Assembly: GCA_021792595.1 (NCBI GenBank)
Contig: JAJYUI010000007.1
Location: 1 to 32,390, forward strand
Source of the DNA: Thermoplasmata archaeon
GTDB lineage: Archaea; Thermoplasmatota; Thermoplasmata; Thermoplasmatales; Thermoplasmataceae
Length of the DNA stretch: 32,390 nt
Reading direction: 5' to 3'
Part shown: in pieces, positions 66 to 24,100 of the stretch
Numbering within the stretch: the first letter of the stretch is position 1
How the letters are laid out: each line of letters begins with the position of its first letter
Notes under the pieces: generated by a model
The model's input: only the letters and a program-made list of their open reading frames with translations
What the model was told of the DNA's origin: nothing
Databases searched by the model: none
Position numbers and translations under genes: made by a program

Positions 66-201
66 GCATCTGCCAGAGAAGTTTCTCTATTTTCTCCTTA
101 TGGCCCTGCCAAAAAAATAAGACATTGTCGAAAGACAACGGTGAACGTTACCCTGGCTCCTGGGAAGATGCAACTTTCATATTATTTGAGCCAAAGTTAA
201 T

Positions 202-212
202 TACTGCCAGTA
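202..212. promoter_or_regulatory. Palindrome TACTG-C-CAGTA upstream of the GH31 gene; candidate TrmB-type operator
   Basis: Perfect inverted repeat TACTGCCAGTA 19 nt before the ATG. The right flank CAGTAGTA also occurs in the GH57 upstream palindrome. Confidence 0.4.
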
Positions 213-230
213 GTATAACTTGATTGCATT

Positions 231-2600
231 ATGCAAGAATTCTCAGAGAAATTCAGGAATTTCGCAACACTATTTGGTGAACGGGTTGCAGAAGACTCCC
301 TGTCATACACAAGGGAACGAGACAGGATTGACGGCCAGTATTCCAAAGCAAAGAGTTCCAGCCACAGGATCCCTGGCAAGATGCTGAACACGCTGGTGGA
401 AGAAAACAAGATTACAGTAGATTTTGAGAACCTGAAACTGTCTGTCTCGATTCCAATGGATAATTGCTTCAGGATAACATGGAAAGAAAGCTGGGTTGAA
501 ACCCTGATAAGCAAGGAGTTCACGTGGATTAAACTTGAGACCGGGAAGAATGTCCGTGTAGGGGACGGAGAAATCGAAATTTCCTGCACAGGATCGAGAA
601 TTGTTGTTCACGATGGCGGGATTATATCGCTGTTTGGAACTGACGGCAGCCTATTGAGGACTGACAAAGGGCCGGCGATATCCGATGGCGAGATATTCAC
701 CAGCGCCTTGATTAGGGACAGTTCATCGATACATGGGTTCGGGGAGAAGGCGTTCGGCCTCAATCTCAGGGGAACCAGTCTTGAATTCTGGAATCATGAC
801 CCAGACGGCAGTTATGGACCCAGGGACGACCCGCTTTACATTGGGATACCTGTATATATGGACCTGGTGAGTGCCAGAGGTTGCCTCGCGTTTTACAACA
901 ACCCTTCAAAGTCGAATGCGGATGTGTGTTCAAGCAGGCCAAACGAGATATCCATGCTGTTTGAAGGAGGGGGACTTGATTACTTCCTCTGCACCGGTTC
1001 CATGCGAGAACTGACTTCAATGTTCTCTGATATCACCGGAAAACCGTTTATGCCTCCCAGATGGGCCCTCGGATTCCACCAGTCCAGGTACAGTTACATG
1101 TCGACAGAGGAAATTTCAGATATTGCAGAAAATTTCATTGCCAACGGTCTTCCCCTGTCTGCAATCTATATGGATATTGATCACATGGACGGTTTCCGGG
1201 TCTTCACATTCAACAGGCAGAGTTTCTCAGATGTAGGAAGACTCTCTGAGAATCTTGAAAAGAACGGAATAAAGCTTGTTTCCATCATTGATCCCGGAAT
1301 AAAAAGCGACCCTGGGTATGGCACGTTCCTGGAAGGGGAAAGGGAAGGCTACTTTGCCAGGACTCCAGAAGGGAAAGTGGTTCTTGCCCCTGTGTGGCCT
1401 GGACTTGCCGCTTTTCCAGATTTTACCAGCGAAAGAGTGCAGAAATGGTGGGCTGACAATTATGACTTCTACATTGGTAAAGGCATTTCCGGATTCTGGC
1501 ATGACATGAATGAACCTGCCACTTTTACCATGTGGGGTGACAATACCCTCCCCATGTCAGCAGAATTCGAGAAGGGAAGTCATAATGTTATTCACAACCT
1601 GTACGCACTTTACATGGCGAAAGCCGCCTACGAGGGTTTGCTGGAGAAACTGGATGGAAGGAAGCCTTTCATTCTTACCAGGTCTGGTTGGGCAGGAATA
1701 CAGAAGTATGCTTTCGTTTGGACGGGGGACTCCGAAAGTACAACGGAGGAAATGATCTCGACCATTTCTACAATTATAAACATGGGATTGTCAGGAATTC
1801 CTTATGTTGGGGTTGACATCGGCGGATTCTCAGGCTCACCGTCGAAAGAACTGTACCTGAGGTGGTTCCAGATTGGAGCATTTCTTCCATTCTTCAGGGT
1901 CCACTCCGGCAAGAATACTGAAATGAGGGAGCCCTGGAGATTTGGCAAGGAGTTCCTTGCCATCGTTAGAAAATTCCTGAAGCTTCGCTACAGGCTTATT
2001 CCATACTATTATGGGCTGGCATACGAGTCACACAGGGAGGGGTATCCGATCATTCGGAGTCCTGCCTGGTACGACCCGTCGTTTGGTGATGACGGAGCTA
2101 GTTCTTTCATGGTCGGTGACAGTATCCTGGTGATCCCTGTTCGCCCCGGTGAGACCCATGTTTCCACCAGATTGCCTTCTGGATCATGGTACTCCCTGTG
2201 GGATGACTCGGTGTATAGCGGAATATTTGAGTATGATACCAGAGAAGAGGATATTCCCGTTCTTGTACCGGAAGGATCAGTGATTCCGATGGATGAAGAG
2301 GGAGGGTTTACAATTCATGTTTTTCCAGGAGACCATGGGTCGGGATTTCTCTACCTTGACGACGATACGAGGGACCCAGCTTACTGCAGATACATTTTCA
2401 AAGTAGAAGGAAGTGGAAACCTTTACAGGCTCAACTACAAGCTGGAAAGAGGGGGACTTCTGCCACCTGATGAAATCAGGTTCAGGATACACGGTTCTTC
2501 TGGTTGGACTTTCAATGGAGATTCCATTACTCGGGTTGTTAACGGAAACACCTTGACCTGCAGTGGCGAGGCGGGAGAGTTCAGTTTCACCAATGGCTGA
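231..2600 (+). CDS. GH31 family alpha-glucosidase (maltase-like)
   Basis: GH31 hallmarks in the translation: nucleophile region GFWHDMNEPATF, acid/base region WTGDSESTTEEM, and GIPYVGVDIGGFSG. Full-length ORF starting with ATG. Confidence 0.93.
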   Translation: MQEFSEKFRNFATLFGERVAEDSLSYTRERDRIDGQYSKAKSSSHRIPGKMLNTLVEENKITVDFENLKLSVSIPMDNCFRITWKESWVETLISKEFTWIKLETGKNVRVGDGEIEISCTGSRIVVHDGGIISLFGTDGSLLRTDKGPAISDGEIFTSALIRDSSSIHGFGEKAFGLNLRGTSLEFWNHDPDGSYGPRDDPLYIGIPVYMDLVSARGCLAFYNNPSKSNADVCSSRPNEISMLFEGGGLDYFLCTGSMRELTSMFSDITGKPFMPPRWALGFHQSRYSYMSTEEISDIAENFIANGLPLSAIYMDIDHMDGFRVFTFNRQSFSDVGRLSENLEKNGIKLVSIIDPGIKSDPGYGTFLEGEREGYFARTPEGKVVLAPVWPGLAAFPDFTSERVQKWWADNYDFYIGKGISGFWHDMNEPATFTMWGDNTLPMSAEFEKGSHNVIHNLYALYMAKAAYEGLLEKLDGRKPFILTRSGWAGIQKYAFVWTGDSESTTEEMISTISTIINMGLSGIPYVGVDIGGFSGSPSKELYLRWFQIGAFLPFFRVHSGKNTEMREPWRFGKEFLAIVRKFLKLRYRLIPYYYGLAYESHREGYPIIRSPAWYDPSFGDDGASSFMVGDSILVIPVRPGETHVSTRLPSGSWYSLWDDSVYSGIFEYDTREEDIPVLVPEGSVIPMDEEGGFTIHVFPGDHGSGFLYLDDDTRDPAYCRYIFKVEGSGNLYRLNYKLERGGLLPPDEIRFRIHGSSGWTFNGDSITRVVNGNTLTCSGEAGEFSFTNG

Positions 2601-2736: not shown

Positions 2737-3930
2737 ATGAGTTTTCTCTCCCTCCAGAACATTTCAAAAACTTTTGGAAATAAATTCAAGGCCCTTGATA
2801 ATGTCTCTCTTGAGGTTGAGAAGGGGGAGTTCTTTGTTTTGCTCGGACCGTCCGGCAGCGGTAAGACTACCCTCATCAGGTGTGTCGCTGGACTCGAAAC
2901 CGTTGATGAGGGGAAGATTTCAATCGGGGAAAGGCTGATAACAGATTTTCCTCCGGGAGAAAGAAATGTTGCAATGGTATTCCAGAACTATGCCCTATAT
3001 CCATTCCTCACTGTTTACGAAAATCTTGCTTTTCCACTCAAAGCCAGGGGAAGGCTGAAGCGGGCACTGTGGTCAGAGGCCCTGGCAAGTGGTAGCTCTC
3101 CCAGGACCGGCATAGGTTACGCCCTCGGCCTTAACCCGATAAGGAGATCGGAGGTCAGGAAAAACATACGAGAAAGGATCGACCGCGTTGCCGAAATGCT
3201 GCAGATCTCGGATATTCTCGATCGGAAACCCGGCCAGATTTCCGGAGGGCAGAGGCAAAGGGTGGCATTGGGCAGGGCACTCATAAGGGAGGCAAATGTC
3301 TACCTTATGGACGAGCCACTCAGTAACCTAGACGCGAAACTACGGTCATCCACAAGAGTCGAACTCAAGAACCTCCAGAAGAAACTCGGCATCACAGTCG
3401 TTTATGTAACTCATGATCAGATAGAAGCAATGACCATGGGGGACAGGATAGGTGTCATCAACAAGGGGCATTTGATCCAGGTTGGAAAGCCCCTAGATGT
3501 CTACAACATGCCTGACAACCTATTTGTTGCCAGCTTCCTTGGCGATCCGCCGATTAACCAGGTTGACGGAAGTGTATCCGACCGGAATAGGTCAATGATT
3601 TCCTTTGGCGGATATGATCTTGAGTTGCCGGGCAATCCTGATCTCTCCGGAGCCCCAGGAAAGAGGCTGAAACTTGCCATCAGGCCGGAGGATGTAGAGA
3701 TAGGGAAACTGGGGGCTAATGCACGCGTACTCTTCGTCAGGTCAATTGGAAGAACACACTACATCTCTGTAGTTCTTCAGGAAACTGAAGAAATGCTTAC
3801 AAAGGTGACAACCGAGGAGATGGATATATCAGAAGGCATGGAAGTGCATGTAATGCCCAATCTCTCGCACCTTGACGTGTTCGATAAGGACACTGAAGAA
3901 CTTGTCTGGTCGGCAAAGAGATCCCAGTAG
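2737..3930 (+). CDS. malK: ABC transporter ATP-binding protein, MalK/MsmX-like (CUT1 sugar importer)
   Basis: Walker A GPSGSGKTT, Q-loop VFQNYALYP, signature ISGGQRQRVALGRAL, Walker B VYLMDEPLSNLDAKLR, H-loop THDQIEAM, and a C-terminal TOBE-like domain. Confidence 0.93.
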   Translation: MSFLSLQNISKTFGNKFKALDNVSLEVEKGEFFVLLGPSGSGKTTLIRCVAGLETVDEGKISIGERLITDFPPGERNVAMVFQNYALYPFLTVYENLAFPLKARGRLKRALWSEALASGSSPRTGIGYALGLNPIRRSEVRKNIRERIDRVAEMLQISDILDRKPGQISGGQRQRVALGRALIREANVYLMDEPLSNLDAKLRSSTRVELKNLQKKLGITVVYVTHDQIEAMTMGDRIGVINKGHLIQVGKPLDVYNMPDNLFVASFLGDPPINQVDGSVSDRNRSMISFGGYDLELPGNPDLSGAPGKRLKLAIRPEDVEIGKLGANARVLFVRSIGRTHYISVVLQETEEMLTKVTTEEMDISEGMEVHVMPNLSHLDVFDKDTEELVWSAKRSQ

Positions 3931-3946: not shown

Positions 3947-4870
3947 TCATTTGTAAGTTGCAATTGAAAAGCCTGACACCAGGTATCTCTGGAAAACGAT
4001 AAACAGTATGAAAATGGGTAATCCCATGACGATCGAGAAAGCGCTGAACTGGCCGAAGTTAATGGCCTGGGAAGAAATCTGGCTGTACTTGTACAACCCC
4101 TGCGCCATGTTGTCCAGTTTTCCGTTGGACACCATCATGTTTATGAGAAGATAATCTGAATATGGCCCGAAGAAAGCGAGCAGCATAGACATTATCAGGA
4201 CAGGCTTTACCATGGGAAGCAGCACCCTGAAGAGAGCCTGCGTTCTTGTGTGGCCGTCTATCTGGGCAGACTCCTCAAAGTCTGCGGGTATGCCATCCGT
4301 GAAATTCTTTATCAGCCAGGCGTTGAATATCACCGCCCCGCCGGAGTACAGGATTATCATTCCAAAGTAAGAGTTTGTGAGGGAAAGTTCCGAGAACATG
4401 TCGTAGAGTGGGATGACCATGATCGCAAGCGGGAATGTTGAAAGGATAAGCATCATGTACAGTATCACCCTTTTTCCGGGGATGCGGAACCTCGATAATG
4501 CAAGACCTGCAGAGAATGAGAGTCCCAGAGCTATTATGGTGGCACTGCCTGAATAGAACAGGGTGTTCGGAAGCCAGATATTGAGGAGTGCAGATCCGTC
4601 AAACCGGAAGAGCCCAGTGTAGTTCGCCAAGTTGAGCCTGGTGGGTAGCGGCAGCAGTGAGTTTATTGAAACAGAGGCAAGTGTAATTCCAGGGCTCAGC
4701 GAATTCACGAACATGTAATATATCGGAAATATGGAGTAAACTGCAACAGCGATCAGAACAAGGTGCGTGGCGATTCGCTTAATGATCCTGACTCTCCTGA
4801 AATGCAGGTTCCTGGATACACTGAAATGTTCCTCGCCTGGCTTATCCACAACTTTCCCGTTTATCTCCAT
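3947..4870 (-). CDS. malG: Sugar ABC transporter permease, MalG-like
   Basis: Multiple TM segments and an EAA-loop-like stretch (DFEESAQIDGHTRTQALFRVLLPMVKPVL). Adjacent to a MalF-like gene and a binding protein. Confidence 0.9.
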   Translation of the reverse strand: MEINGKVVDKPGEEHFSVSRNLHFRRVRIIKRIATHLVLIAVAVYSIFPIYYMFVNSLSPGITLASVSINSLLPLPTRLNLANYTGLFRFDGSALLNIWLPNTLFYSGSATIIALGLSFSAGLALSRFRIPGKRVILYMMLILSTFPLAIMVIPLYDMFSELSLTNSYFGMIILYSGGAVIFNAWLIKNFTDGIPADFEESAQIDGHTRTQALFRVLLPMVKPVLIMSMLLAFFGPYSDYLLINMMVSNGKLDNMAQGLYKYSQISSQAINFGQFSAFSIVMGLPIFILFIVFQRYLVSGFSIATYK

Positions 4871-4880
4871 GTTACCAACC

Positions 4881-5804
4881 TCAATAGACCACGCTCATCA
4901 TTCTTGTAAACTTGTTTATCAGGATAACGAACACAAGCAGAATCAACACATTTATCATGGCATATGCCGATGCCAGACCCCATGATGGATAGGCAATGCT
5001 AACCTCGTTGTAGGCGTAAGTAATCAGGATGTACGTGGAAGTACCTGGCCCTCCACCAGTCAGCAGGAATGGTATATAGAAATTGTTCCACGTGAATATG
5101 AACCCGAATATCGTGACGAAAGATATCTGTCTTTTCAGGAGAGGGAGGGCAACCTTTCTCACTGTGCCGGTCGTGCCGTAACCGTCGATCCTTGCGGCAT
5201 CATAGAGTTCCTTGGGAACACTCTGGAGTGCGGCCGTATAGACAAAAGTATAGTATGGAAACGAAAGCCAGAGATTCACAAGGATCATGGAAAACATGGA
5301 TGTCGAGGAGAGGCCAAGCCAGTAAACCTTCTCAACACCGACCATGGCCAGGACTTTGTTTATGAATCCCAGATTATAATCCAGCAGGCCTTTCCAGATA
5401 AGTATGGTAATGAAGGCCGGATATGCCCATGGAAACAGGTAGATTGTACGGTAGAGCTTCGTTCCACGGATGCCTGGCTGGTTCATCAGGAGTGCCAGCA
5501 TGAATCCAAGAGATGACATCAGAATAATGCTTCCGCCGCTCCACACAAATGTCTGCCAGATCAGGGTTGCAAGGCTCGGGTTATTCTCAAACAGGATGAT
5601 ATAGTAATTTCTTGCACCCACGTAGGAATAATTGAAGATGTGAAGAAGGCTGAAATCCGTAAGGGAGTAATAAATTCCGTAGGCAAGGGGGGAGAAATCA
5701 AGAAATACAAGCACAGCAAGAATTGGCAGGATAAACAGGTATCCATGCCAATCCAGTTTCCCGTGCTGCTTCTTTCCTCTCCAATTCCCTGCCCAACTTA
5801 ACAT
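4881..5804 (-). CDS. malF: Sugar ABC transporter permease, MalF-like
   Basis: Multiple TM segments, EAA motif region (LYDAARIDGYGTTGTVRKVALPLLK) and LLTGGGPGTST motif typical of MalF-type permeases. Confidence 0.9.
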   Translation of the reverse strand: MLSWAGNWRGKKQHGKLDWHGYLFILPILAVLVFLDFSPLAYGIYYSLTDFSLLHIFNYSYVGARNYYIILFENNPSLATLIWQTFVWSGGSIILMSSLGFMLALLMNQPGIRGTKLYRTIYLFPWAYPAFITILIWKGLLDYNLGFINKVLAMVGVEKVYWLGLSSTSMFSMILVNLWLSFPYYTFVYTAALQSVPKELYDAARIDGYGTTGTVRKVALPLLKRQISFVTIFGFIFTWNNFYIPFLLTGGGPGTSTYILITYAYNEVSIAYPSWGLASAYAMINVLILLVFVILINKFTRMMSVVY

Positions 5805-5824: not shown

Positions 5825-7288
5825 TCAATAAAAAAGAGGGATAAATTGTTTGATTGGAACAGCCACGAAGACACTGTTCGCATATACCCCCGCGCTGACT
5901 AGCTCACTTACCCCCTGCGAAAAGGAAGTCAGGATGAAGCCGTAAGAGTCGTAAGGAACGTTGTTCGCTATCAGTGCGCTGATGATCTGAGACTCGATCT
6001 GGTTCATCGCATCGGTTGGAGTGACTGTTGTGGAGTTCTGTTCAAGGTTTGAGGCCCCGATGTGGAATGCGTTCCAGTAGAAAGCCATCTGAGGTATGTT
6101 GGGGAATTTCTGAGTATGCTGTTCCTGAGCTATCCAGCCTGAGACAAGAGGATCATTGCCAGGATGTGCACTTATGTAACTGCCCACTGAGTTCAGGGAG
6201 GGGAAATCACCAGCCTTGTTGAAGAGGTTAAGCTGGGCAGTATAGTTAGTCATTGCCTTGACAAACTGCACCGAAGCCCAGACCTGTGCACTGCTTGCAC
6301 CGCTTGCAGCATGGTTGGAAACTAGGTATCCAATTGAGCCCCAGAGAGGCAGTGGCCACTTTCCGGTGTGGTTATCGAACGGAATTGCGGCAACCCCCAG
6401 GTTGTTTCCAAGATATTTCATGTATGTTGACTGGTCCCAGGGACCATCTAGCATGAAGGCAGAGTAGTTGCCTTCAAAGTATGTCTGCTCGTCAAGTTCT
6501 GAACTCAGTCCTGCCTTGTCGACCCCGTAGACCTTGGTCCAGTTCCAGACAAAGCTCATGGCAGCGATATCATGGCTGCTGTTCAGTTCCGGGTACCCGG
6601 ATGTGTTGAACAGTTCCCCGCCGAATGCGGGATACCATGTAGCGAACCTGTAGCCGTATGTGGCTCCTATTGCATACGGGAGTCCGAGATAGGATGAACC
6701 CATATGCGTGACGTTAAGTGCATCCTGGATCATCTGATAGGTGTTCTTGGGAGGGTTGGGAACAAGCAACTTATTGTAATAAAGAGCAATTCCGTTGGTG
6801 TTGACAGGAACTCCATAAAGCGCACCATGCAAAGTCCAGTCACTTATTGTTCCTGTAGTGAAATTTCCGGTGAATGAACTGCCCAGGTATTGTGAGAGAT
6901 TGACCACGAGGCCAGCAGAATAAAGTGCTCCTCCATTGTCACTGCTGTCTCTGTAAACGTTCGGCGCAGTGTGCGAAGTTGCATCAGTCGCAAAGTTACT
7001 TGTACCTACAGCGACACCATGCGTGATGTCCAGCGTAATGTTGGAATGCTGAGCTTCAAAGAGAGCAACGGACGTATTGAACGCCGTAGATTCCCCTCCT
7101 GAGGCACTGGAATCCCAGACTGATATTGTCACTTTCTTTGGCGCGCTTGAAGTCTTCTGGTTCTGCCCCTGGTAATATAACGCAACGGCAACACCTGAGA
7201 CAACGACGATGATTACAACAACTATGGCAATAATTAGTGTCGGTTTACTTCTTGGTGGAACAGGTGTACCACCTTGAGTAGTATCCAT
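5825..7288 (-). CDS. Extracellular solute-binding protein of a sugar ABC transporter, membrane-anchored by an N-terminal TM
   Basis: N-terminal hydrophobic anchor LIIAIVVVIIVVVSGVAVALYY, then a family-1-like solute-binding fold (KVTISVWDSSASGGESTAFNTSVALFEAQHSNITLDI...). In operon with permeases. Confidence 0.9.
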   Translation of the reverse strand: MDTTQGGTPVPPRSKPTLIIAIVVVIIVVVSGVAVALYYQGQNQKTSSAPKKVTISVWDSSASGGESTAFNTSVALFEAQHSNITLDITHGVAVGTSNFATDATSHTAPNVYRDSSDNGGALYSAGLVVNLSQYLGSSFTGNFTTGTISDWTLHGALYGVPVNTNGIALYYNKLLVPNPPKNTYQMIQDALNVTHMGSSYLGLPYAIGATYGYRFATWYPAFGGELFNTSGYPELNSSHDIAAMSFVWNWTKVYGVDKAGLSSELDEQTYFEGNYSAFMLDGPWDQSTYMKYLGNNLGVAAIPFDNHTGKWPLPLWGSIGYLVSNHAASGASSAQVWASVQFVKAMTNYTAQLNLFNKAGDFPSLNSVGSYISAHPGNDPLVSGWIAQEQHTQKFPNIPQMAFYWNAFHIGASNLEQNSTTVTPTDAMNQIESQIISALIANNVPYDSYGFILTSFSQGVSELVSAGVYANSVFVAVPIKQFIPLFY

Positions 7289-7364: not shown

Positions 7365-9257
7365 TTACTTACACGACATGTTTGACCCGGATCGCTCGAA
7401 GATAACAAACGAGAATGGTCCCATGTCAATCGCGCCTCCGTTCACGGTGATTCCGTTAGCGACCAGAATTTTCCCAGTGACAGAAAGACTGGCTTCGTGG
7501 GAAGTGGTAAAAACCATTTCAAGGGAAGAGTGATGATCCATCTTTGCTATTCCGAAGCAGTCTCCGTAATCACGGAACATTGTGATTCCTTCTTCCATGG
7601 CAGTATAAAGCTGCCTTGTCTTCCCGAGGTTCCTGAAAAACCCAAGAGAGGAAGAATCAAGGCTGTTCCAGGGAAAGCATCTCCGGCAGTCTGGATCAGG
7701 TCCACCGGTCAGGCATGCCTCATCCCCATAGTACAGCGAGGGGAGCCCGTTCATCATGTAAAGAATTGCATATGAAAGCCGGAACTTATCCTCATCCTCT
7801 CCGAGAACGTTACGCAAACGACTTACGTCATGTGAGCCCAGAAGGTTCATCATAAGTGTCATCGGCCGGTCTCCGTACTGAAAGCAGAGTTTCCTGTACT
7901 TGACCCGGAATCTGTTGAAATCATCCTCCATGCCCACCATGGACAATATCATGGATCTCAGGGGATAATTCATGAGCCCGTCGAACAGCCCTTCTCGCGT
8001 GAAATATGGCGCAACGCACCACGCCTCGCAGATCTTCCTGATTTCCCTGTCGTATGATCCAATAATATGAAACAGTTCCTTGAAGTAATCAACTGGAATT
8101 GAATCGGCAACGTCGAACCTGAAGCCATCCACTTTGAAATCTTCAACATAGTGTGCGATAACCCTGTTGAAATACTCCCTTGCCTCCTTCTCCATGAGGT
8201 TGACCTTCGGCATTCCCCCGTAGCCCAGAAAAGTCTCGTATCCAGGTGCATCATGGCTTTCACCGGGCGTATAATGATGCCTGTAAATTTCAGGATTATC
8301 ATCGATGAAACGATACCAGTGGAAATATGGAGATTCCATTTTCCTTGAAACAGCATCCCTGAAGAACGGATGGTCCACGGATGTATGGTTGAAGACCACA
8401 TCCATGATCACCCTGATCCCCATGGAATGAGCAGTTCGTACAAGGTTTCTGAAGTCATCTTCGTTTCCCAGCAAGGGATCGATGGAAAAGTAATCCAGAA
8501 CATCGTATCTGTGATTGCTTCCTCCAGAGTTAATCGGATTAAGATAGAGATGACTGACGCCCAGCGATTTCAGGTATTCCAGTTTAGAGGAGATTCCTTT
8601 CAGGTCTCCCCCGAAATAGGTGGAAGCGGTGGGCTGGGAACCCCATGGTGCAAGCTCCTTGCTTGGTCTCGATCCCCTGTTAAACCTGTCCGGGAATATC
8701 TGGTACATAAGCGTACGTCTCTCTGACTTCCTTTCTTCCGGAACCATGGTAAAATATCCTGTCCTGGGTATCGAGATTTTGTCACCCGAAAACCGGTATT
8801 TCCTGAAATCACCTCCAAATTCATAAACGGTTCCAAAACTTTCTGCCACCTCTTCCCTGTAGATCCCCGATCCACTCTCCGTTTCCAGAACGTAATTCCC
8901 ACCCCCTCTGGGAACCGCCAGCCTCACGATCGAGTGACCCCCGATGTTTCCGGCAAACTGCGGCATTCCCGGATTATGGTAAGTTGTTTCAAGGGGAATT
9001 TCAAACAGAGTGTTCTCCGTGACTGGGTTTCTGCTCTCGTCAAATGAGTGATACTGGTTGACAAGAATCCTGTAGTCATATCTGCCGGGTGGAAGAGTGA
9101 TCGTGCATACCCAGTTGTGTTCCTCCATGAAATAGGTGCTTCCCTGTCCGTTGCAGTTAAATGAGCCTGAGAGATAGACAGTTCTGTCTCCGCCCACCCT
9201 GGGAAATACAAATCTCACACTGTGGAGGTAGCCATCAATGCTGCTCACTTCTGGCAT
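7365..9257 (-). CDS. GH13 alpha-amylase family enzyme, neopullulanase/cyclomaltodextrinase-like (cytoplasmic)
   Basis: GH13 conserved regions: DVVFNHTS, GFRFDVADSIP (nucleophile Asp), EAW (acid/base Glu), LLGSHDVSRL. N-terminal starch-binding/E-set-like domain; no signal peptide. Confidence 0.9.
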   Translation of the reverse strand: MPEVSSIDGYLHSVRFVFPRVGGDRTVYLSGSFNCNGQGSTYFMEEHNWVCTITLPPGRYDYRILVNQYHSFDESRNPVTENTLFEIPLETTYHNPGMPQFAGNIGGHSIVRLAVPRGGGNYVLETESGSGIYREEVAESFGTVYEFGGDFRKYRFSGDKISIPRTGYFTMVPEERKSERRTLMYQIFPDRFNRGSRPSKELAPWGSQPTASTYFGGDLKGISSKLEYLKSLGVSHLYLNPINSGGSNHRYDVLDYFSIDPLLGNEDDFRNLVRTAHSMGIRVIMDVVFNHTSVDHPFFRDAVSRKMESPYFHWYRFIDDNPEIYRHHYTPGESHDAPGYETFLGYGGMPKVNLMEKEAREYFNRVIAHYVEDFKVDGFRFDVADSIPVDYFKELFHIIGSYDREIRKICEAWCVAPYFTREGLFDGLMNYPLRSMILSMVGMEDDFNRFRVKYRKLCFQYGDRPMTLMMNLLGSHDVSRLRNVLGEDEDKFRLSYAILYMMNGLPSLYYGDEACLTGGPDPDCRRCFPWNSLDSSSLGFFRNLGKTRQLYTAMEEGITMFRDYGDCFGIAKMDHHSSLEMVFTTSHEASLSVTGKILVANGITVNGGAIDMGPFSFVIFERSGSNMSCK

Positions 9258-9340: not shown

Positions 9341-9365
9341 TATTATACTATTTACAGTAGTAATA
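9341..9365. promoter_or_regulatory. AT-rich near-palindrome TATTATACTATTTACAGTAGTAATA; candidate TrmB operator in the GH13/GH57 divergent promoter region
   Basis: TACT-N6-AGTA core with TATTA/TAATA flanking arms, just upstream of the putative TATA box (AATTCTTAAA, ~9376-9385). Confidence 0.45.
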
Positions 9366-9405
9366 GCTGAGCAAAAATTCTTAAACTCTGTTGCATGAAT
9401 TCAGC

Positions 9406-12400
9406 ATGGCCCATTCAATGCCCTTTAGGCTAATCGTGATTCTTGTGGCTACACTTATGGTGTTTTCGTTTCCGTTTTCATTTTCGTCATTCTCCTCCAA
9501 CGGCGGATCGAACCTGCCCCAGGCTCCGGTGCATCAGTTAAGTTCTGTGGGACATTCCACCGCAATACCAGGATCAATAAGCGTTTCCAGCTCGAATATA
9601 TCCTTTACCGGAAATGTTGTATCTGATTTTGCCGGGCACATGGTTGCTTCTAACAACAACGCGAGCGCATGGGGTGCAACCAACAATATCTCCAGGCTGT
9701 ATGTTGCATTCAACTCCACATATCTTTTCATAGGGGTTTATGAGAATATTTCCGGAAATTCGCTCTATGTTTTCATGAGCAACAATTCCGGAACGCCATA
9801 TGGAACCACAAATATAACAGGGCTGAACACCTGGAGCAGGAACATTAATTTCACCAACCCGATGAACTATATGGCAACTGTTTATTCACCCAATTCCGGT
9901 CCATCAGGTCAGAATGCCTTCGTAATAAACAGTTCAGTTGCAAAGAGCGACACTTCCCCTTTCGCCACCACGATTACGAGTTATTTCAGGTTCGGATCTG
10001 CCATGAATACAACTGAAATCAGGATTCCGTGGACATCTCTTTTCCCTTACGGTCACAGCGGAAACCTTGACATGAACATATCCGCTTTTGTTGTGGGCAG
10101 CGGGGGTCCCTGGCTCGGAACCGGCATTCCATTTTCGCAGAAAGGCACTTATAACAGCGGATCGCAGAGCGAGTTCACCATAAGCAACTCTGTCAGCATG
10201 AATTTTGGAACTCTAACGGTAGCCACTTCGCAGCATATTCCGATAAACCTTGCCATAGTCTTTAACGACCACCAGCCCCTGTACAAGATTGTCGGCTCCC
10301 AGAATTACCAGCTTCCCTGGACTGAGGCCCACGCTACTGCAGAATACATGGTGCAGCCGTTGATAGCACACATGTATCCTCAGATAAACGTTACGTACGA
10401 ACTTTCTGGTTCATTACTCTACCAGCTGAATAATATCTCCTCAGACCCGCAATACAATAATACGTACATTCAGGGTGCATTCATTCCCTGGAGTTCGCTG
10501 AACACCACCCAGAACCTCACATACCTGGACAACCTGACTTATGATTATTTCAGCATTCCTGGATACGTGTTTTCACTTGGAGAACCGGCTTCAAACCTGT
10601 ACGCAAACATACACAACAACTGGACGGCTGGAAAAAGGCTCAACGCTACCCAGTTCGAGGATGCTAAAGTCCTATGGTTTCTTTATGACATAAGTACCTC
10701 CCTTGTGGAAGGAAAGCTTGGGGTACAGTGGAAGAACAGTACTATCTGGGCAATGCACAACCAGACAAGCTTCACTCAGGCAGACCTTGTAAAAGTACTT
10801 GATTACTCAAGGTGGCTCACAGGAAGGGTGATGAACGCATTCTCCGCCGACATGATGGGAAACGTCACCGGCAGCAATAATGTGGAACTTATGACAACGC
10901 CGTTCTACCACCCGTTGATGCCCCTCCTGGTCACGAACAGCATATCCGGCCCGCAGGGGAGTATATCCAAGGGAGCCTATAATGCTGATCTACTGGCGCA
11001 ACTTGAATACGGAAAGGGCCAGTTTTACAACTACTTTGGAATGACGCCGACCGGTGTGTGGTCGCCTGAGGCAGCAGTTTCGAACGCGACCGTTTCTCCC
11101 CTCAACCTGTCCGGGTACAAGTGGACAGAATCATCTGAATGGACTCTTCAGCAGAGCGGTGTTAATGCTCTAGACAGCGGAAAAGGCGGAAACGTGACCC
11201 AGTTGCAAAACCTGTACACCCCGTACAAGGTGATGGGAGCCAACGGGACCTCCGTAACTATGTTCTTCAGGGATGATTATCTCTCCAACGCCTGGGCATT
11301 CAATTACGGTAGCATGAGTACATCCGCCGCAGTGGCGAGTTTTATCAACTACCTGAAGGGAGTTTATAACTCAATACCTCTGAAAGATCACAACAATACA
11401 TTGGTGACGGTTGCCCTTGACGGGGAAAACTGGATGTTCATGTCCCCTTTCGCGAATGACGGAATACCCTTCCTTGATGCACTTTACTCCGGCCTGGAGG
11501 CAAACTCATCATATATACACACCGTAACCCCGCAGCAGTATCTTGCTACCCACTACCAGCTTCCAGTGATACACAATCTGGCTTCAGGAAGCTGGAACCA
11601 GGGCAATGGAGTTGCAGCACCCTATCAGGGAGACATATCCCTGACCCAGTGGTCTGGATATCCTGTGCAGGACTTTTACTGGGAGGTACTCAACGAGGTG
11701 CGTGGAATGGTTATGCAGTACCGGGTCCAGAACGGACTGACCCAGCTGGGTAATTATACGCTGGTAGAGCAGAATCTCACGGCCTCAGGAAAGGAGGGGA
11801 ACTTCACAAGAGCGATGAACGCTATTTACGCAGCAGAAGGCAGTGACTGGTACTTCACTGCGGCCCCATGGGACATTACCGGTTCCAACATGATCCCGTT
11901 CGACTATATCTTCAAGGGTGATCTCATCTATGCTCTCCACCAGATCGGAGAGGCTATTCCAGATTATCTTACGACTCATTCGATGCCGCCATATCCTGCA
12001 TTCTCCATGGGGCAACCTAACCAGGCACATACACCAACCATGGGAGGCTATCCGCAGACGTCTTCCAGTACAGGCATAGGAACTGCGTTTTCGGTGACTT
12101 CCAATAACGGATGGCAGGGTTCTGCTGTATACATGAACAATTCATCGGCTTCCACTCCGCTTGGAATCACCCAGATGGATATCGCATACAATCCCAGCAC
12201 ATTTTATGTCCAGATCTTCGTTAATGGAAAGGCAACAAGTTACATTGCAAATTCCAGTATCCAGATATCACTGTATTTTTCCGGTTCCGGAGTATTCAAC
12301 CCGTCAATGGGGAACGTCAGCTTTGATGTGCCTGGTGCGAATTACAATTCAATTCACGGAAATGCCCCGCTTGACTTCCCTGCAAACTACATGATCTCAC

Positions 12401-14397
12401 TCTCTTCGTATTCCTTCAATTCGAAAGGAGTGGGGGCATATGTGGTCTACTCCGCTGCTGGTTTCGGGAAGTGGAACACAATGGTACAGGACGCCAATAC
12501 ACCCGCGTACATAGGGCAAACGATCCAGTTTGCAATTCCATTCACCTATCTGGGAATGGTTCCTGGAGACACCTTCTACATGGCAGCAATGGCATCGACC
12601 AACCCAGGACCGGGAATCCACCCTGCAGTCTATTCAAGCTTGACACCAGTCCTGGTTAATGTTCCTGCCTCACTGGGAAAGTTCTACCCGATTGCTGCAA
12701 TACACAATACCGTTCCAGATAATGGACCGGGGAATTACACCTACCCAAATCAGCCAGCACAGATTCCAAACGGGTCTCTGGATATGCAGTGGATCAACGT
12801 ATCGATGAACAGCTATGACATGATGTGGAATTTCACTTTCGACCAGCTGTGGAATATCTGGAATGGCCCACTTGGGTTCTCCAACCAGATTGTGCAGGTT
12901 TTCATCAATGAGAACAACGGCTCAGGTTCGTCTTCCCTTGGAGCAGGTCCCAACGCAAATGTGAACAGGCCATGGCAGTACTCCATCTATCTCTCCGGAT
13001 GGGCGGCATATATTGCCTCCTCGTCCGGTTCTCAGTATACTAATGGCATTGTTGCAAAGGCAAATCTAACCTCAAGGACCGTGTCAATGGAATTTCCTCT
13101 TTCCATAATAGGAGGAAATCCGAGGTATTACGGTTATACAATCGTATCCGGTTCATATGATGGCTATGGCACTAACGGATGGAGAATAGTTGACAAGGTG
13201 AACACCTCGAATGGAGGATGGCAGGGAGGCGGAGGTGATCCTCCCTGGAGTTCAAATATATATAGCTACATAGCCCCGGCAACGGTTGGCGAAGGGAGCC
13301 AGACACAGCAGCAGGCACTCACTTACAGTTCAGGAAAAATCCCTACGATTACACCTGTCTTCCTGCCACTGCTCAACAGTTCCCTGGGCATGGCGCAATT
13401 CAACTATACTTCTTACAACGGATCAGTGCTTGTAAGGAACAGCAACACATACTACGACATGTTCGTCTCCAACATGTCGGGGTCAAACAACCTTTACTTT
13501 TCCTCCTCCACCGACATGATCGGCTGGACAAACCCAACAGAGGTGAGATCAATTTCCGGCATCGATCACTTTTCAGCGACCACCATAAATGGATCAGTTT
13601 ACGTACTCTTTAATGAACGAGCTAGTCCGGATAAACTGAACATTGCCAGGGTCTCACTTTCTTCCGCTACTTCGACCATGCTCGGTTCATTCAATGCCAC
13701 ATTTGCTATCCTCAGGGTTTCAGCCGTGAACAATAACACAGTTGGCAATTATGTAGCCATATCCAACGGGAGCTATGCACAATTCCTGCGTGTTGCTTTA
13801 ACGTCGTCAAAGGCCACAGTGTCTGCCCTGGCCGGTTACTCCGGGTCCGGATACGCATCCATAGACCAGTTTGGCGGGGAACTCTTTGCGGCAGTGATCA
13901 ATGCCAGCAAGGTACTTTTCATAGACCAGTTCTCTACCTCCGGTAGCTTCCAGAAGGCAGTAAAGATGAACACAAGCGGCGTGGCTGACTTCTCTATTGC
14001 AATCAGCGATTATGGAAACCTCTGGATAGCATATGCAAACAGTACCTCGCCAGGTTCTATTTTCTTCACGAACACTTCCTTGAATGGTGAGTGGACATTT
14101 TCACCCCTTACTGCCATGTCTCTTTCAGGGTCAGACGTTTACGAGATTTCAATCTTGACCGTTAACCATGGTGGTACAAGCAGCCTGATAATGACCTGGG
14201 GTGCTGCCAGTTTAACAGGGAATTCTATTTGGGCATTGAATTCCACGTTGTCCTGGAGTAATGTGGCCATCAAGCAAAGCTCGGCAACGGCTCCTAACTC
14301 ACTGCCGCTTTGGGTATACATAGTGGTCGGCGTGGTTACCGCTGCGGTAGTTGCAACAGCATCTTATTACCTGTTCTACAGGAAAAAGAAGGGTTAA
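9406..14397 (+). CDS. Secreted, C-terminally membrane-anchored GH57 glycoside hydrolase (amylopullulanase-like) with N-terminal DOMON/CBM9-like, glucodextranase-C-like and sialidase-like repeat regions
   Basis: Signal-like N-terminus (FRLIVILVATLMVFSFPFSF). GH57 motifs FNDHQPLY, TGVWSPEAAV, KWTESSEW, FFRDDYLS and DGENWMF. DNGPGNYTYP stretch typical of glucodextranase-C domains. C-terminal TM then RKKKG. The ORF track starts at TTG 9391; ATG 9406 gives better spacing from the TATA box. Confidence 0.88.
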   Translation: MAHSMPFRLIVILVATLMVFSFPFSFSSFSSNGGSNLPQAPVHQLSSVGHSTAIPGSISVSSSNISFTGNVVSDFAGHMVASNNNASAWGATNNISRLYVAFNSTYLFIGVYENISGNSLYVFMSNNSGTPYGTTNITGLNTWSRNINFTNPMNYMATVYSPNSGPSGQNAFVINSSVAKSDTSPFATTITSYFRFGSAMNTTEIRIPWTSLFPYGHSGNLDMNISAFVVGSGGPWLGTGIPFSQKGTYNSGSQSEFTISNSVSMNFGTLTVATSQHIPINLAIVFNDHQPLYKIVGSQNYQLPWTEAHATAEYMVQPLIAHMYPQINVTYELSGSLLYQLNNISSDPQYNNTYIQGAFIPWSSLNTTQNLTYLDNLTYDYFSIPGYVFSLGEPASNLYANIHNNWTAGKRLNATQFEDAKVLWFLYDISTSLVEGKLGVQWKNSTIWAMHNQTSFTQADLVKVLDYSRWLTGRVMNAFSADMMGNVTGSNNVELMTTPFYHPLMPLLVTNSISGPQGSISKGAYNADLLAQLEYGKGQFYNYFGMTPTGVWSPEAAVSNATVSPLNLSGYKWTESSEWTLQQSGVNALDSGKGGNVTQLQNLYTPYKVMGANGTSVTMFFRDDYLSNAWAFNYGSMSTSAAVASFINYLKGVYNSIPLKDHNNTLVTVALDGENWMFMSPFANDGIPFLDALYSGLEANSSYIHTVTPQQYLATHYQLPVIHNLASGSWNQGNGVAAPYQGDISLTQWSGYPVQDFYWEVLNEVRGMVMQYRVQNGLTQLGNYTLVEQNLTASGKEGNFTRAMNAIYAAEGSDWYFTAAPWDITGSNMIPFDYIFKGDLIYALHQIGEAIPDYLTTHSMPPYPAFSMGQPNQAHTPTMGGYPQTSSSTGIGTAFSVTSNNGWQGSAVYMNNSSASTPLGITQMDIAYNPSTFYVQIFVNGKATSYIANSSIQISLYFSGSGVFNPSMGNVSFDVPGANYNSIHGNAPLDFPANYMISLSSYSFNSKGVGAYVVYSAAGFGKWNTMVQDANTPAYIGQTIQFAIPFTYLGMVPGDTFYMAAMASTNPGPGIHPAVYSSLTPVLVNVPASLGKFYPIAAIHNTVPDNGPGNYTYPNQPAQIPNGSLDMQWINVSMNSYDMMWNFTFDQLWNIWNGPLGFSNQIVQVFINENNGSGSSSLGAGPNANVNRPWQYSIYLSGWAAYIASSSGSQYTNGIVAKANLTSRTVSMEFPLSIIGGNPRYYGYTIVSGSYDGYGTNGWRIVDKVNTSNGGWQGGGGDPPWSSNIYSYIAPATVGEGSQTQQQALTYSSGKIPTITPVFLPLLNSSLGMAQFNYTSYNGSVLVRNSNTYYDMFVSNMSGSNNLYFSSSTDMIGWTNPTEVRSISGIDHFSATTINGSVYVLFNERASPDKLNIARVSLSSATSTMLGSFNATFAILRVSAVNNNTVGNYVAISNGSYAQFLRVALTSSKATVSALAGYSGSGYASIDQFGGELFAAVINASKVLFIDQFSTSGSFQKAVKMNTSGVADFSIAISDYGNLWIAYANSTSPGSIFFTNTSLNGEWTFSPLTAMSLSGSDVYEISILTVNHGGTSSLIMTWGAASLTGNSIWALNSTLSWSNVAIKQSSATAPNSLPLWVYIVVGVVTAAVVATASYYLFYRKKKG

Positions 14398-14505: not shown

Positions 14506-15540
14506 TCACACTATGTGCAATACTGCCTTCTCAAGAGCGATGTCTTCAACCTTAGCTGATCGTCCCCCTATGGAGTAACTCTTTCCATTCGAAGACAGGA
14601 TAAGACTGTGGCGCAACCCCTCTTCATTTTCGATTTTTACCACTGAACCCGAAAGTTCCACCTCCTTGCCTTCTACCATGCCGGTAACGTTGATCGAAAG
14701 CTTCTTTCCTGCCTGGATCATTGAGTTGCAGATTTCGCACATCAGCCAGTTGGTCGTAAACGAGAATTTTTTCTTCTTTTCCGGATACACTATTTCCTCT
14801 GAGGGCCCCCAAAGTGTGTGATAGAAATAGTAATTCAGGATGTGTATCATCTCGTTTTCCTGAATAAACACTGAAGCCTTCCTGGAGTTAAATACACTCT
14901 CCGTATCCAGGAAGCCGGTCACCCTGTCAGATATTATGACTTGGGACGAAGCGTATTTTCTCCTCCTGACGAACGAATCGGAAAATTTTGGTCCTATCTC
15001 ATCCTGATTTATCTCCGGAGAGAGTACGAGCGCTACTGTCACCCCCCTCCCTATGGCTTCCTGAATGTATTTCTTGGCGTATTTCCACCAGACTGGCCCC
15101 ACGCAGATAAGGAGTTCATGCCTGGCTCCTGAGATTGTCTCCCTTACTTTTTGCCGGATGTTGTTTTCTGCTTCAATTAACCATATTGGCGGTTCATCAT
15201 TGCCGGTTCCGATTTAATTCTCCTCAAGTTTCTTTGACATAGCTTCTATGTCAAGAGTAAGTTCCTCAATTCTCCTTCCAAGAACCGTGGTCACTGGAAG
15301 AGCCCTGTATACCTTCTTTTTCCCCGGGCTGGCCTCAACCAGTCCCTTGGATATCATGTTATTGAATACATCATATATCCTTGGCTGGGGAACCCCGGAT
15401 AACTTAACAACGCCCATTGCGGTTAGAGGACCGTTGGTTAACAGGGTTCTGTAAACCTTGATCTCGTAGGATGTCAACCCGAATTTCGATAACTTCTCAA
15501 AAGCCCCTTCCAAACCTTCACTACTCACACTATCAGACAA
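14506..15540 (-). pseudogene. TrmB-family sugar-sensing transcriptional regulator interrupted by one in-frame TAA stop (15214-15216)
   Basis: ORF 15214..15540 carries the TrmB HTH (LSKFGLTSYEIKVYRTLLTNGPLTAMGVVKLSGVPQPRIYDVFNNMISKGLVEASPGKKKVYRA). Reading on in the same frame after the TAA gives IGTGNDEPPIWLIEAENNIRQKVRETISGARHELLICVGPVWWKYAKKY..., which joins ORF 14506..15102 (TrmB sugar-binding domain). Confidence 0.8.
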
Positions 15541-15572
15541 GAGTAGAATCCTATCGTTTCAGATATAAGTTT

Positions 15573-15902: not shown

Positions 15903-17177
15903 CTGAAAGCCATAGGAATCACTGCTCCTTTCACCGGGTCCGGGAAAACAACGGTCACGCTTGGGGTCCTGAAGGGGCTTGAGAATTCAACATCCGTGAA
16001 GATAGGCCCTGACTATCTAGACACAATGCTGCACTCTGCTGTCACAGGAGTTCCGGGTAACAACCTAGATCGCTGGATCCAGGGAAGAGCGTACAGACGT
16101 CTTCTGGCAAGTCTGGCAGAAAAATATGACTATGCCGTGCTGGAGGGGGTCATGGGATTGTTTGATTCCGGTTCTCCTAAAGATCTCAGTTCCTATTATT
16201 ATTTCAATGCTCTCGGAATTCCGTATATTCTGGTCGTGAATGTCGCGAAACTGGCTGAATCCGCATACTACGTTGCAAAGGGATTCCTTACAAAGTTATG
16301 TAAGGGAGTGATTATCAATGACTATTATTCGGAGAGACATCTTGAGATGGCAAGCAGTCCTTTCAGGCAGAGAGGAATAAGGATCGTTGGGGCTGTCCCG
16401 CATGATGATTCTATTTCTCTGGAGGAAAGACATCTGGGCCTTCGAACGGATCTGGATCCCTCAAGAATTAATGAAATAGCGTCCAGGGTTTCCTCGCACA
16501 TTGACTTCTCATTCATTGATAATCTCCCTGAAATCAATATTTCAGCCGCTACGCAGTCATCAGGCTATGGCATGAGCGGTTTGAGATTCGCGGTGGCACT
16601 GGATTCTGCTTTCAATTTCTACTACAGTTCAAGCCTCAGGTTCATGGAATTGAGGGGAAAGGTCGAGTATTTCTCCCCGCTCAATGGTGAAATTCCAGAA
16701 GACCCTGATTTCATATACATTGGTGGGGGGTACCCCGAACTCTTTGCAGAAAAATTGTCCAGAGTTTCTGCAACTAGAGATTACATCAAGAACTTCTCCC
16801 TGGCAGGAGGCGTCATTCTTTCAGAGTGCGGAGGATTAATGTATCTTGAGGATAAGTTGTTTGCAGGAGACAGAGTGTTCAACATGTGCGGCGTGTTTGA
16901 CGGGAAAACGTTAATGAAAGAAAAACCAGTTATTGGCTACACTAAACTTAGGGCAATGTCCGATACCTTTCTCTTCCGCAAGAATGAAACCCTGTATGGT
17001 CACGAATTCCATTACAGCTTGGCAGAGGATAGTGCGTTGAAAGTGCTGAATAACGAGATTGGCCGTGGAATAGACGGAACCGATGGGCTTTACAAAGATA
17101 ACACACTGGCGACTTATTCCCACTTTGACCTGTCCAGATACGGTAAGAGGATCGTCAGAAACATAAAACCCTCTTGA
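15903..17177 (+). CDS. cbiA: Cobyrinic acid a,c-diamide synthase (CbiA)
   Basis: P-loop KAIGITAPFTGSGKTTVTLGVLKGL lies upstream of the ORF-track start but in frame with it. Also KIGPDYLD, EGVMGLFDS, and C-terminal GATase PDFIYIGGGYPELFAEKL...LSECGGLMYLEDKL...GHEFHYS. The 5' boundary is uncertain (CTG at 15903). Confidence 0.85.
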   Translation: MKAIGITAPFTGSGKTTVTLGVLKGLENSTSVKIGPDYLDTMLHSAVTGVPGNNLDRWIQGRAYRRLLASLAEKYDYAVLEGVMGLFDSGSPKDLSSYYYFNALGIPYILVVNVAKLAESAYYVAKGFLTKLCKGVIINDYYSERHLEMASSPFRQRGIRIVGAVPHDDSISLEERHLGLRTDLDPSRINEIASRVSSHIDFSFIDNLPEINISAATQSSGYGMSGLRFAVALDSAFNFYYSSSLRFMELRGKVEYFSPLNGEIPEDPDFIYIGGGYPELFAEKLSRVSATRDYIKNFSLAGGVILSECGGLMYLEDKLFAGDRVFNMCGVFDGKTLMKEKPVIGYTKLRAMSDTFLFRKNETLYGHEFHYSLAEDSALKVLNNEIGRGIDGTDGLYKDNTLATYSHFDLSRYGKRIVRNIKPS

Positions 17178-17404
17178 GGTTATCTGCGGATGCCCCTTTA
17201 CGATATCGATGAGGACTATTCCCAATTCGTTTCTGAACCCTACGGATTCTAATGCCATGGTATTCGGAAACCTGTGTTACGGCCATATACAGGATCAACC
17301 CTGCCTGATACCTGGCAGTTATCATTATCGCCAATCTTGCGTCTGATCTATAAGAAAATACTTTAATTGGAAGTACATCTGGGAAAACTACTGGAGAAGA
17401 CTCA

Positions 17405-17842
17405 ATGGCAAGAATGCATAGCGGTAAGAAAGGGAAATCCGGTTCTCATAATGACTACAGATCAGACGATCATGAATGGGTGTCCATATCACAGGACGAA
17501 TACAGACAGGTGGCAACATCGCTCAGGAAGGAGGGAATGTCGGCATCCATGATTGGAATAAGGCTCAGAGATCAGTTTGGTCTTCCTGGGTCCAAGGTTA
17601 TTGCCGGAAAGAAACTTACCGTACTGCTGGAGGAGAATGGCATGAAGCCTGAGATACCCGAGGATCTCGTGGCACTGATTGCCAAGTACCAGAGAACAAC
17701 AAAACATCTGGAACTGAATCATGGTGATTCTGCAGCCATCAGGGGTAGAAACCTAATTATGGCCAAGATCCTGAGACTTGTAAGGTACTACAAGAAGAAC
17801 AATTATCTATCCCCTGAATGGAGCCTGTCCAAGGTTCTTTGA
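17405..17842 (+). CDS. rps15: 30S ribosomal protein uS15 (S15)
   Basis: Characteristic archaeal S15 sequence MARMHSGKKGKSGSH...IGIRLRDQFGLPGSKVIAGKK...HLELNHGDSAAIRGRNLIMAKILRLVRYYKK. Confidence 0.97.
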   Translation: MARMHSGKKGKSGSHNDYRSDDHEWVSISQDEYRQVATSLRKEGMSASMIGIRLRDQFGLPGSKVIAGKKLTVLLEENGMKPEIPEDLVALIAKYQRTTKHLELNHGDSAAIRGRNLIMAKILRLVRYYKKNNYLSPEWSLSKVL

Positions 17843-20333: not shown

Positions 20334-21119
20334 TCACTTCTTTCTCCATTTGGGTGCAGACAGCCTGCCAGCGCGCTTTCCTGATGAGAGAGCAAGCAGA
20401 ACACCAAAGACGATCGCTATTGCCGAGGCATAGTAAATCCAGTCAAAATTCGGTGGAGTCCCGTAATAGAAGTGTTGCGTGAAAGAAATCTGGCCATTTA
20501 CACGAACAAGGGCATTGCTCACATTTATTGTAAGGCTGTGCTCTCCATCACTTAGATGTGGGTAAACGATATCTACGGATACATTCTTTGTACTTTCTGG
20601 TGCTAGAGCCCTGATGAATGATTTCCCTACATGATTGCCATCAATGTAGTAGTTTACTGTCACATTGTAGATATATATGTAACTCGGGTTGCTTATGGTT
20701 GCCTTTAGTATCACTGGCTTGAAAACACTTATCGCGAGGCTGCTGTTGGCCCTTTCGCTTGTCTTACCTACATTTACTGTGGTAGATACAAACAGGTAAA
20801 GTGTCTCTGCAGAATCTGGGGCAGTTGCATTTATTCTAAAGTATGGACTGGATTGGGTGAAGTTATGGAAAGTACCGGAAGGAGAGATACCACTGAGATT
20901 ATATGCTGCAAAGTAAGCGGTGACACTGTAATTTTCCCAGCCATAAGTGCAGTTTATAAACACCGTGAAATTCTGTCCAGAATAAACACTGCTTGGTGCA
21001 CTAACATCAACCTGGTATATGTTCGGATGGGTCTGCGGAGTTTGTGAGTGGCCAACCCCCACTGGAATCGCGAATAACATCAAGCATGAAACAAGCAAAG
21101 TCAGTACAATACCTCTCAT
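20334..21119 (-). CDS. Small membrane-anchored extracellular protein with CARDB-like domain
   Basis: Signal peptide (IVLTLLVSCLMLFAIPVGVGHS), beta-rich N-glycosylatable ectodomain, C-terminal TM (WIYYASAIAIVFGVLLALSSG) and basic tail. ATGA overlap with the upstream AglB ORF. Confidence 0.75.
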   Translation of the reverse strand: MRGIVLTLLVSCLMLFAIPVGVGHSQTPQTHPNIYQVDVSAPSSVYSGQNFTVFINCTYGWENYSVTAYFAAYNLSGISPSGTFHNFTQSSPYFRINATAPDSAETLYLFVSTTVNVGKTSERANSSLAISVFKPVILKATISNPSYIYIYNVTVNYYIDGNHVGKSFIRALAPESTKNVSVDIVYPHLSDGEHSLTINVSNALVRVNGQISFTQHFYYGTPPNFDWIYYASAIAIVFGVLLALSSGKRAGRLSAPKWRKK

Positions 21120-24100
21120 TTCTTTCTCCTCCCCCTGAAACCGGCGATTGCCAGTCCCGCTATGATCGAAGCAGCGATTATTCCTATTCCAATATACAGC
21201 GTGTCATATGGATTTCCAGTGTAATTGGAGATAGATTCCCCAACCGGATAGGTCTTTAGAACCGGTAACTGTGGATATTGTGGAACAAGCGAGAGAGATT
21301 TCACCTGTCCATTAAGGGTTCCCAATATGGTCACGCTTGTTATGTATCTTTGTTTCATGGAAGAGTTTGGAGAAAGTTCCAGGTAAAGTGAAGCAGTCTG
21401 GTTCATGCTTAGTGAGACTTTAGTCACAGACTTGTTATTGTAGATGAAACTGAAACTCCACCCGTAGGAAGAGTAAAGTGATCTGTTAATGGAAAGAGCG
21501 ACCTTCTCTGGCCCGTTCCCCGTATTCTTCACTGAGAACTTAATGAGAATGTTCTTCTCGTGAGGAACGCCCACGGTGTTGACAGAAGTCATAGAAAAGT
21601 TGTAGAATTGCTTGACGGTCGCAGTAAGGTACCCGGTATAGTTTCCAGTTCCATAGTCAACCCTGACCGGGATTTTATCCTTTCCTGATGCTGCATACTT
21701 TGAGATTATCACTGAAGCATTCATGGTCACATTCTGCCCAGGTGAAAGCATCAGTTTGTACTTGCTGAATGTAATGTTCCAAGATCCATTTCCGGAATGA
21801 AGCGTGACGTTTGCAAATGTGTGTCCTGCGTTTTTCAGATAGAAAGTATATGCTGCCGTGCTTCCATTAAGAACAGATCCGGATGGACCTGAGAGTTGGC
21901 CCAGTGCAAGGTTGTAATGGTAGATCCTTTCAAGCTGGACAAGTACATAGGAACCATAGGTTATTGCCTGAGTGACGTTTGTTCCATATATCTCTGTGAA
22001 CTGAATTCCCTGATATGTCGAATTAAATTTCTCAGAGGCCGAAAATTCAAATGACTCCATTGGGAGGAATATCGATTTCTGTGAACTGTTAATCACCATG
22101 GTAAAACTGGTATGAATGATAGTGATATTCGTGTTGATCACTTTCCCGGAAATAGTTACGGACACCGGTACAGTGGTTCCTGGGATCATAGTTACATTGT
22201 AAATTGTTGGGGCAGAGAATGGGTTGAGTGTTTCAGAGCCCACGAAAGCAAGTCCTGAAGCTACATTGGTGACATATAGCGAGTAAGTGCCAGCTGATAG
22301 ATTCATCCGGTACCAACCGGTACCGTTAGTATAGGCTTGCTTGACAAAGGCGCCAGTTGAATTAAAGACACTCACGTTAGTATACTGGTATGGTTTACCA
22401 TTGTACAGCACCAGACCGTAGAGAATATCATGAATTGTCGAGACCGATAGTGTCAGGTTGATAGTAGTATCAGAAGCAAGAGATACATGCTTCGATCCGC
22501 TCAAGCTATACTGTCCTGTGGAATTAGAGTAGTTTAGTAGATAGCTAACCCCGTAATTTCCTGCCGGTAAAGAGTAGGTTCCTTCACTAAAGTGAACAAC
22601 CAGCCCCTTGTAATCAAGAGAGTAATTTCCTCCCTTTACTGAGAGGGTATTCTCAAGTGCTACATAATAAGACTTCCCAAAGGAAGGGGAAAATGTCGTA
22701 TTCTTTCCAATATACAGGCGCGTGATGTTAGTCCCGATGGGGTTGACTGAATAAACGGTGTAAACTCCAGCTGGTACCTCTGAACTTCCGTGATAAGATT
22801 CCCCCGCGCTGCTGAACAGCGTATAGTTGAGAGAACCATTCTCTTGGAGCCTTACGAATGATTTCACAGGAATGGTTATTGAAACATTGCTCGCAGGAAT
22901 TGATACAAGTTGCGTCTCTGGAGCAATGGATGCATCAAGGCTGCTGAATTTTACCATGTATTCTCCGGCTGGAACGACCCCGGTGAATGAGCCATCACTC
23001 AAAGGTAAAGTGTAATTACCTCCTGGGCCGTCAAGATATACAGTACCGTTGTATGCTGACTGTTTTCCATAAAGGTTGATTGCCCCGCTGAGCGTGAATG
23101 CAATCACCTCTGCATTCATGGTAAGGTTCCTTGAACTCACTGACTTGGTTATAGGTAAGAAATAAGGCGATTTGTATGAAACTGAGAGAAGAGAGTCGTG
23201 AACGTAAGCCAACGGGATGTCAAGGGCAACGAAACCACTTTTGGGCACAGACTGGAACGTCAGCGGAGTACCCTGGTAACTCATTTCAAGAATTCCGTTA
23301 TCCAATAATGATGATTTCGCGGAATTTGTGGAATACATGGAAACATTGAGCATTACAGCAGGTTGCAAGGACATATTAATGGCCAAAGATGCTTTGACGT
23401 ATGTTATCTTCTCGGCAGAATAGATCTTCCCCAGAGAAACGCCGTGCGATTGAATGGTATAGGTACCCCTCGGTACATAAATGGAAGTCAGGGAAGTTGG
23501 AGTGTTGTAATCAACCTGTATTATTCCAGAGCCACTGAGTACCTCATAGTAGCCCGTGTATTGTACACTGGTGGGAAGGTAGGTTGTAAGATTGATATAA
23601 CTGCCACTCGAAAGGCTCAGTGTAAGGTTCATGTTGGCGTTAAGATCAAATGTTTTGAAAGCCACCTGATTTCCACGATGCACGTAGGCTGTATAAATGC
23701 CCAACGGTAATGAAATGTTGAAATCTCCCTGAGAATTCGTAATGGCCTGTCTGGCTTCGTTTTCCTGTCCACTCTGATAGAAATATACGTAAACAGGGGA
23801 ATTCATTTGCGTCACACTACCTGTGATCCTAGCAGAAGCGGACGGGGTGAGATTCAGGGTTTGGTTCAAATTCCAAGACTTGAATGAAGCCTGAACGAAG
23901 GCTGAAGTTATTCCTTGACCTGAAAGGTAAAGCGAGTATGAGCCTGGTTGAACCCAGAATTCCGAAACACCTGTCGAGTTTGTCACGTTAGTCTTGGTTA
24001 TTCCAGAACCATTGAGAACTATGTTTGCACCCTTAATCGGGTTTCCATTCAATAATGCTCTTGCGAATACTGAGTCATATTGTATGTTGAGATTCTCCTG

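Follow-up and report, generated by a model that had tools for sequence, protein, structure and literature searches.

The trmB gene adjoining a starch/maltodextrin island in this Thermoplasmata genome is one TrmB-family gene with one internal stop, occupying positions 15540..14506 on the minus strand of the window (the whole 32,390-nucleotide stretch of DNA that was analyzed). This copy of a known gene was probably broken only very recently, and a new split-regulator design is not supported. Comparison with two congeners, the Thermoplasmata metagenome-assembled genomes G001 and G002, led us to conclude that an ordinary two-domain TrmB was probably hit very recently by a single nonsense substitution at a serine codon of the linker.

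The interrupted trmB gene

The gene and its parts are the following:

14506..15540, minus strand: interrupted TrmB-family regulator gene, with PF01978 and PF11495; start at GTG 15528 (favored) or TTG 15540
15214..15216, minus strand: in-frame TAA in the linker, aligning with residue 101 of Pyrococcus furiosus TrmB; serine codon in both congeners
15217..15528, minus strand: residual first product of 104 aa, winged HTH plus coiled-coil dimerization helix, from the domain match and alignment
14509..15213, minus strand: sugar (effector) binding domain, severed from the HTH by the stop and otherwise intact, with the SIGGRSAKVED motif kept
15562..15569, minus strand: CTTATATC, a TATA-like element ahead of trmB that G001 shares unchanged, by inspection of the alignment

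The TAA (15216..15214), codon 109 counted from TTG 15540, interrupts a minus-strand frame of 345 codons whose terminal stop is a TGA at 14508..14506. When this frame was searched against Pfam with X in place of the TAA, the TrmB HTH (PF01978) matched residues 17-83 (E=7.4e-23; 80.6 bits against a cut-off of 25.6) and Regulator_TrmB (PF11495) matched residues 119-342 (E=2.1e-45). The presence of both domains in one frame excludes chance and identifies a single interrupted two-domain gene; PF11495 is separated from the HTH by the TAA here, but both belong to a single polypeptide in the congeners. The preliminary description was therefore right in assigning the sequence to the TrmB family, in placing both halves in one minus frame broken by a single TAA, and in locating this stop in the linker between the HTH and the sugar domain. 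The ORFs 15214..15540 and 14506..15102 call for annotation as one gene instead of two.

The Tyr/Asp pair for DNA recognition (Y50/D51 in P. furiosus) is kept within PQPRIYDVF, according to an alignment of a congener to the 3QPH structure. That alignment ends before the Gly/Glu columns near the C-terminus; these GG...E columns, invariant in an 18-sequence alignment, were equated with the sugar contacts G320 and E326 of P. furiosus by motif only.

Regarding the start codon, the GTG at 15528 is matched by TTG in G001 and by ATG in G002, whereas the aligned column at 15540 reads TTG here and CTG in G001. As the former is a start codon in all three genomes, codon conservation favors GTG 15528 as the more likely start over TTG 15540, from which the gene had originally been read. 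The first product would accordingly have 104 aa (GTG 15528) or 108 aa (TTG 15540). Usual archaeal TATA spacing puts the start of transcription near 15540, given CTTATATC at 15569..15562. The predicted spacing would fit either GTG 15528 with a leader of ~11 nt or a leaderless TTG 15540.

The stop codon is private to this copy

The alignment to orthologues in related genomes that the preliminary description had suggested found the same gene open throughout in both congeners (about 86-87% amino acid identity in G001 and 70% in G002), with a serine codon in the column of the stop. At the level of the class, a profile search of 400 genomes gave 65 strong matches spread over 40 genomes; 64 of these 65 homologues had no internal stop at all, the sole exception being the present gene. 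Named records place members of the TrmB family also in Ferroplasma acidarmanus and Acidiplasma aeolicum, among others. The stop is private to this copy and the orthologues are intact in close relatives, as expected of a recent pseudogene or nonsense allele. No relevant papers were found on nonsense mutation in TrmB.

A search of 61 genomes also located, in a relative from the same family (G009), a TrmB homologue scattered over three frames (G009:C2:89538-90533). These look like frameshifts, which may reflect decay or sequencing error, the latter because this 1.7-Mb genome scores only 50% complete.

Age of the stop codon

Relative to G001, dN was 0.057 before the stop and 0.084 after it, while dS was 1.37 before the stop and saturated after it. 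Using G002 as the outgroup, 9 amino acid changes and 19 synonymous codon changes after the stop were assigned to this branch, and 8 and 26, respectively, to the G001 branch; the replacement/synonymous ratio did not differ significantly between the two (p=0.57). Codon positions 1+2 carried 20 changes on this branch vs 15 on that of G001, and position 3 carried 36 vs 36. Downstream of the TAA there was no second stop and no frameshift, despite 106 one-step mutations able to create a stop. Since a long unconstrained period would have left many more replacements, the stop is, on this reckoning, very young: either it arose in the small last part of the lineage or it is absent from the organism.

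The neighboring genes that could be aligned with G001 were 69-95% identical and uninterrupted, with trmB in the middle of this range, indicating that trmB is not unusual in its divergence; the two permeases were compared in part only, owing to an N run in G001. This run (G001:C55, about 17149-17740) extends from the end of malF into the start of malG and makes two ORFs there look extended.

Nonsense mutation or consensus error

The intact congeners and the strong downstream constraint bear out the first alternative of the preliminary description, a fresh nonsense mutation or a sequence error. The main rival to a nonsense mutation is precisely the latter, namely that the TAA is a single-base consensus error, or that a minority strain was collapsed into the contig, and that living cells make full-length TrmB; we hold this to be possible but less likely. 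The full constraint downstream without sign of decay is what an error would predict, this is the sole interrupted copy among the 65 strong homologues, and the source genome is a draft (1.35 Mb, 86 contigs, 85% complete). In the assembled sequence of a single genome of the species, a one-base consensus error would look identical to a mutation. However, when 267 kb of this genome were compared with 624 kb of a congener, no conserved gene other than trmB showed a clear interior stop, in a sample where true gene pairs were few (37 congener ORFs with a match of at least 60% identity, some of them antisense). As no other clean interior nonsense codon appeared in the sampled orthologues, the sequence is not visibly error-rich. 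Consensus substitution errors are, in addition, rare in short-read assemblies, which argues against an error if this genome is short-read.

Other apparent interior stops in the sample were judged to lie in shadow (antisense) ORFs or in sequence upstream of the likely start. The only such case inspected in full was a P-loop ATPase that looks Mrp/ApbC-like by eye; its apparent stop precedes MAKGTIK. A hexamer coding-score scan of 170 kb of the genome for further genes interrupted in frame was too weak to be of use; the trmB stop was not among its top hits.

Can the sensor half be made?

The preliminary description had also raised the possibility that the HTH and the sugar sensor are made as separate polypeptides, with the sensor reinitiated at GTG 15102. 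The two halves do share one open frame and the stop sits between the domains, in keeping with such a design; however, there is no ATG, GTG or TTG in the 37 codons after the TAA. GTG 15102, 38 codons on, is the first start-like codon, but no Shine-Dalgarno-like sequence lies just upstream of it, the only GGAG being ~23 nt away. This GTG corresponds to P. furiosus residue 139; with the sugar domain aligning from residue 110 or so, its product would miss ~29 residues of this domain, including the conserved stretch IWLIEAENNIRQKV. Located inside the sugar domain, GTG 15102 is not a plausible gene start, and production of a separate sensor half seems unlikely, for want of a usable start codon ahead of it. 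A functional split gene would be expected to show a restart codon with a ribosome-binding site and a split conserved in relatives; the sequence offers no such restart and no relative is split likewise, making this proposal, which would have meant an unusual regulator, extremely improbable.

Readthrough of the stop, yielding a full-length regulator, is just as hard to credit. It would account for the constraint downstream, but TAA is an ordinary terminator in the window, ending for example the neighboring GH13 and GH57 genes, and no relative has a stop at that column. Moreover, TAA is not the codon for pyrrolysine or selenocysteine.

The residual fragment and the starch island

The island and its candidate operators comprise:

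231..2600: GH31
2737..3930: MalK-like ATPase
3947..4870: permease 1
4881..5804: permease 2
5825..7288: solute-binding protein
7365..9257: GH13
9391..14397: GH57 with a glucodextranase-type C-terminal module
199..215, plus strand: candidate operator AATTACTGCCAGTAGTA, upstream of GH31; same place in G002
7267..7283, plus strand: candidate operator TACCACCTTGAGTAGTA, overlapping the first malE codons; also at malE in G001 and G002
9346..9362, plus strand: candidate TrmB operator TACTATTTACAGTAGTA in the divergent GH13/GH57 promoter; same place in G001

The palindrome TACTACT-N3-AGTAGTA contains the operator of P. furiosus TrmB, TACT-N3-AGTA (PMC4158304). In G002, where genes were assigned by order and size only, it is found at the malE, malK and GH31 counterparts, and all the matches scoring at least 11/14 in the three loci (here, G001 and G002) sit at these island promoters. 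The count of palindrome matches is not by itself above chance, and the argument for the candidate operators is one of position and conservation; at malE, where the first codons are overlapped, the site could be conserved through coding constraint. With a candidate operator that resembles the Thermococcales motif, the targets of TrmB in Thermoplasmata become testable in intact relatives.

In G002 (G002:C36), trmB is the immediate neighbor of the malE counterpart, with no GH13 and GH57 genes between the two as there are here, implying that the gene content or order of the island varies within the genus. Elsewhere in the window, a minus-strand ORF of 2102 aa (21116-27424) shows a PMT_2 glycosyltransferase-like match near its N-terminus and several CarboxypepD_reg repeats, and is followed by a CARDB-domain ORF (20334-21119).

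In P. furiosus TrmB, a coiled-coil helix dimerizes the protein through its residues 81-91 (PMC4158304, from which the DNA-contact and coiled-coil residues were taken). According to the 3QPH alignment the stop falls after this helix and before the effector domain, and the fragment retains the wHTH and the dimerization helix with no sensor. Following a nonsense substitution, the cell would make only this fragment of 104-108 aa and not the sensor half, which lacks a usable start codon before it, and the allele would be heading for decay or would be a segregating variant deregulating the island. The fragment could bind the candidate operators sensorless, or it could be unstable. If stable, it could dimerize, bind TACT-N3-AGTA and repress without relief by sugar; if unstable, the island would no longer be under TrmB control. 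That the nonsense allele is genuine and frequent in its population, with a stable fragment sitting permanently on TACTACT-N3-AGTAGTA as an uninducible repressor of the starch island, seems to us improbable.

Weighing against a simple nonsense mutation is the location of the stop at a clean domain boundary, which would be expected of a functional truncation too. OxsR and MreA are examples of single-domain TrmB proteins (PMC9426492, PMC4158304), and a real and selected truncation would leave a similar HTH-only TrmB acting as a constitutive DNA binder; the fragment keeps the Tyr/Asp pair and the coiled-coil helix, it ends at P. furiosus residue 101, and the candidate operators are still present. 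Even so, such a truncation is missing from every relative examined, it is too young for selection on the fragment to show, and the half beyond the stop has yet to be lost, for which reasons we regard it as quite doubtful.

Comparison with known TrmB systems

The gene resembles that of P. furiosus and Thermococcus litoralis TrmB (PDB 3QPH) in encoding a wHTH with the Tyr/Asp pair, a coiled-coil helix and a C-terminal sugar domain, in its proximity to a MalEFGK-type transporter and amylolytic genes, and in the TACT-N3-AGTA contained in its candidate operators. It differs in that the domains of this copy are parted by an in-frame TAA, and the similarity is modest, the intact congener scoring 66 bits (phmmer). 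This congener is also far below the NCBIfam equivalog cut-off for TrmB.

The two-domain architecture is likewise shared with TrmBL1 and haloarchaeal TrmB, for which the intact congener scored 93 and 92 bits (NCBIfam), respectively, far below both equivalog cut-offs. TrmBL1 recognizes the TGM (TATCAC-N5-GTGATA), in contrast to the promoter palindrome TACTACT-N3-AGTAGTA found here. As for the single-domain MreA and OxsR, these are HTH-only proteins of about 120-140 aa, a size comparable to that of the residual fragment. They are, however, established genes in their own right, whereas in the present gene an intact and recently constrained sugar domain still lies beyond the stop.
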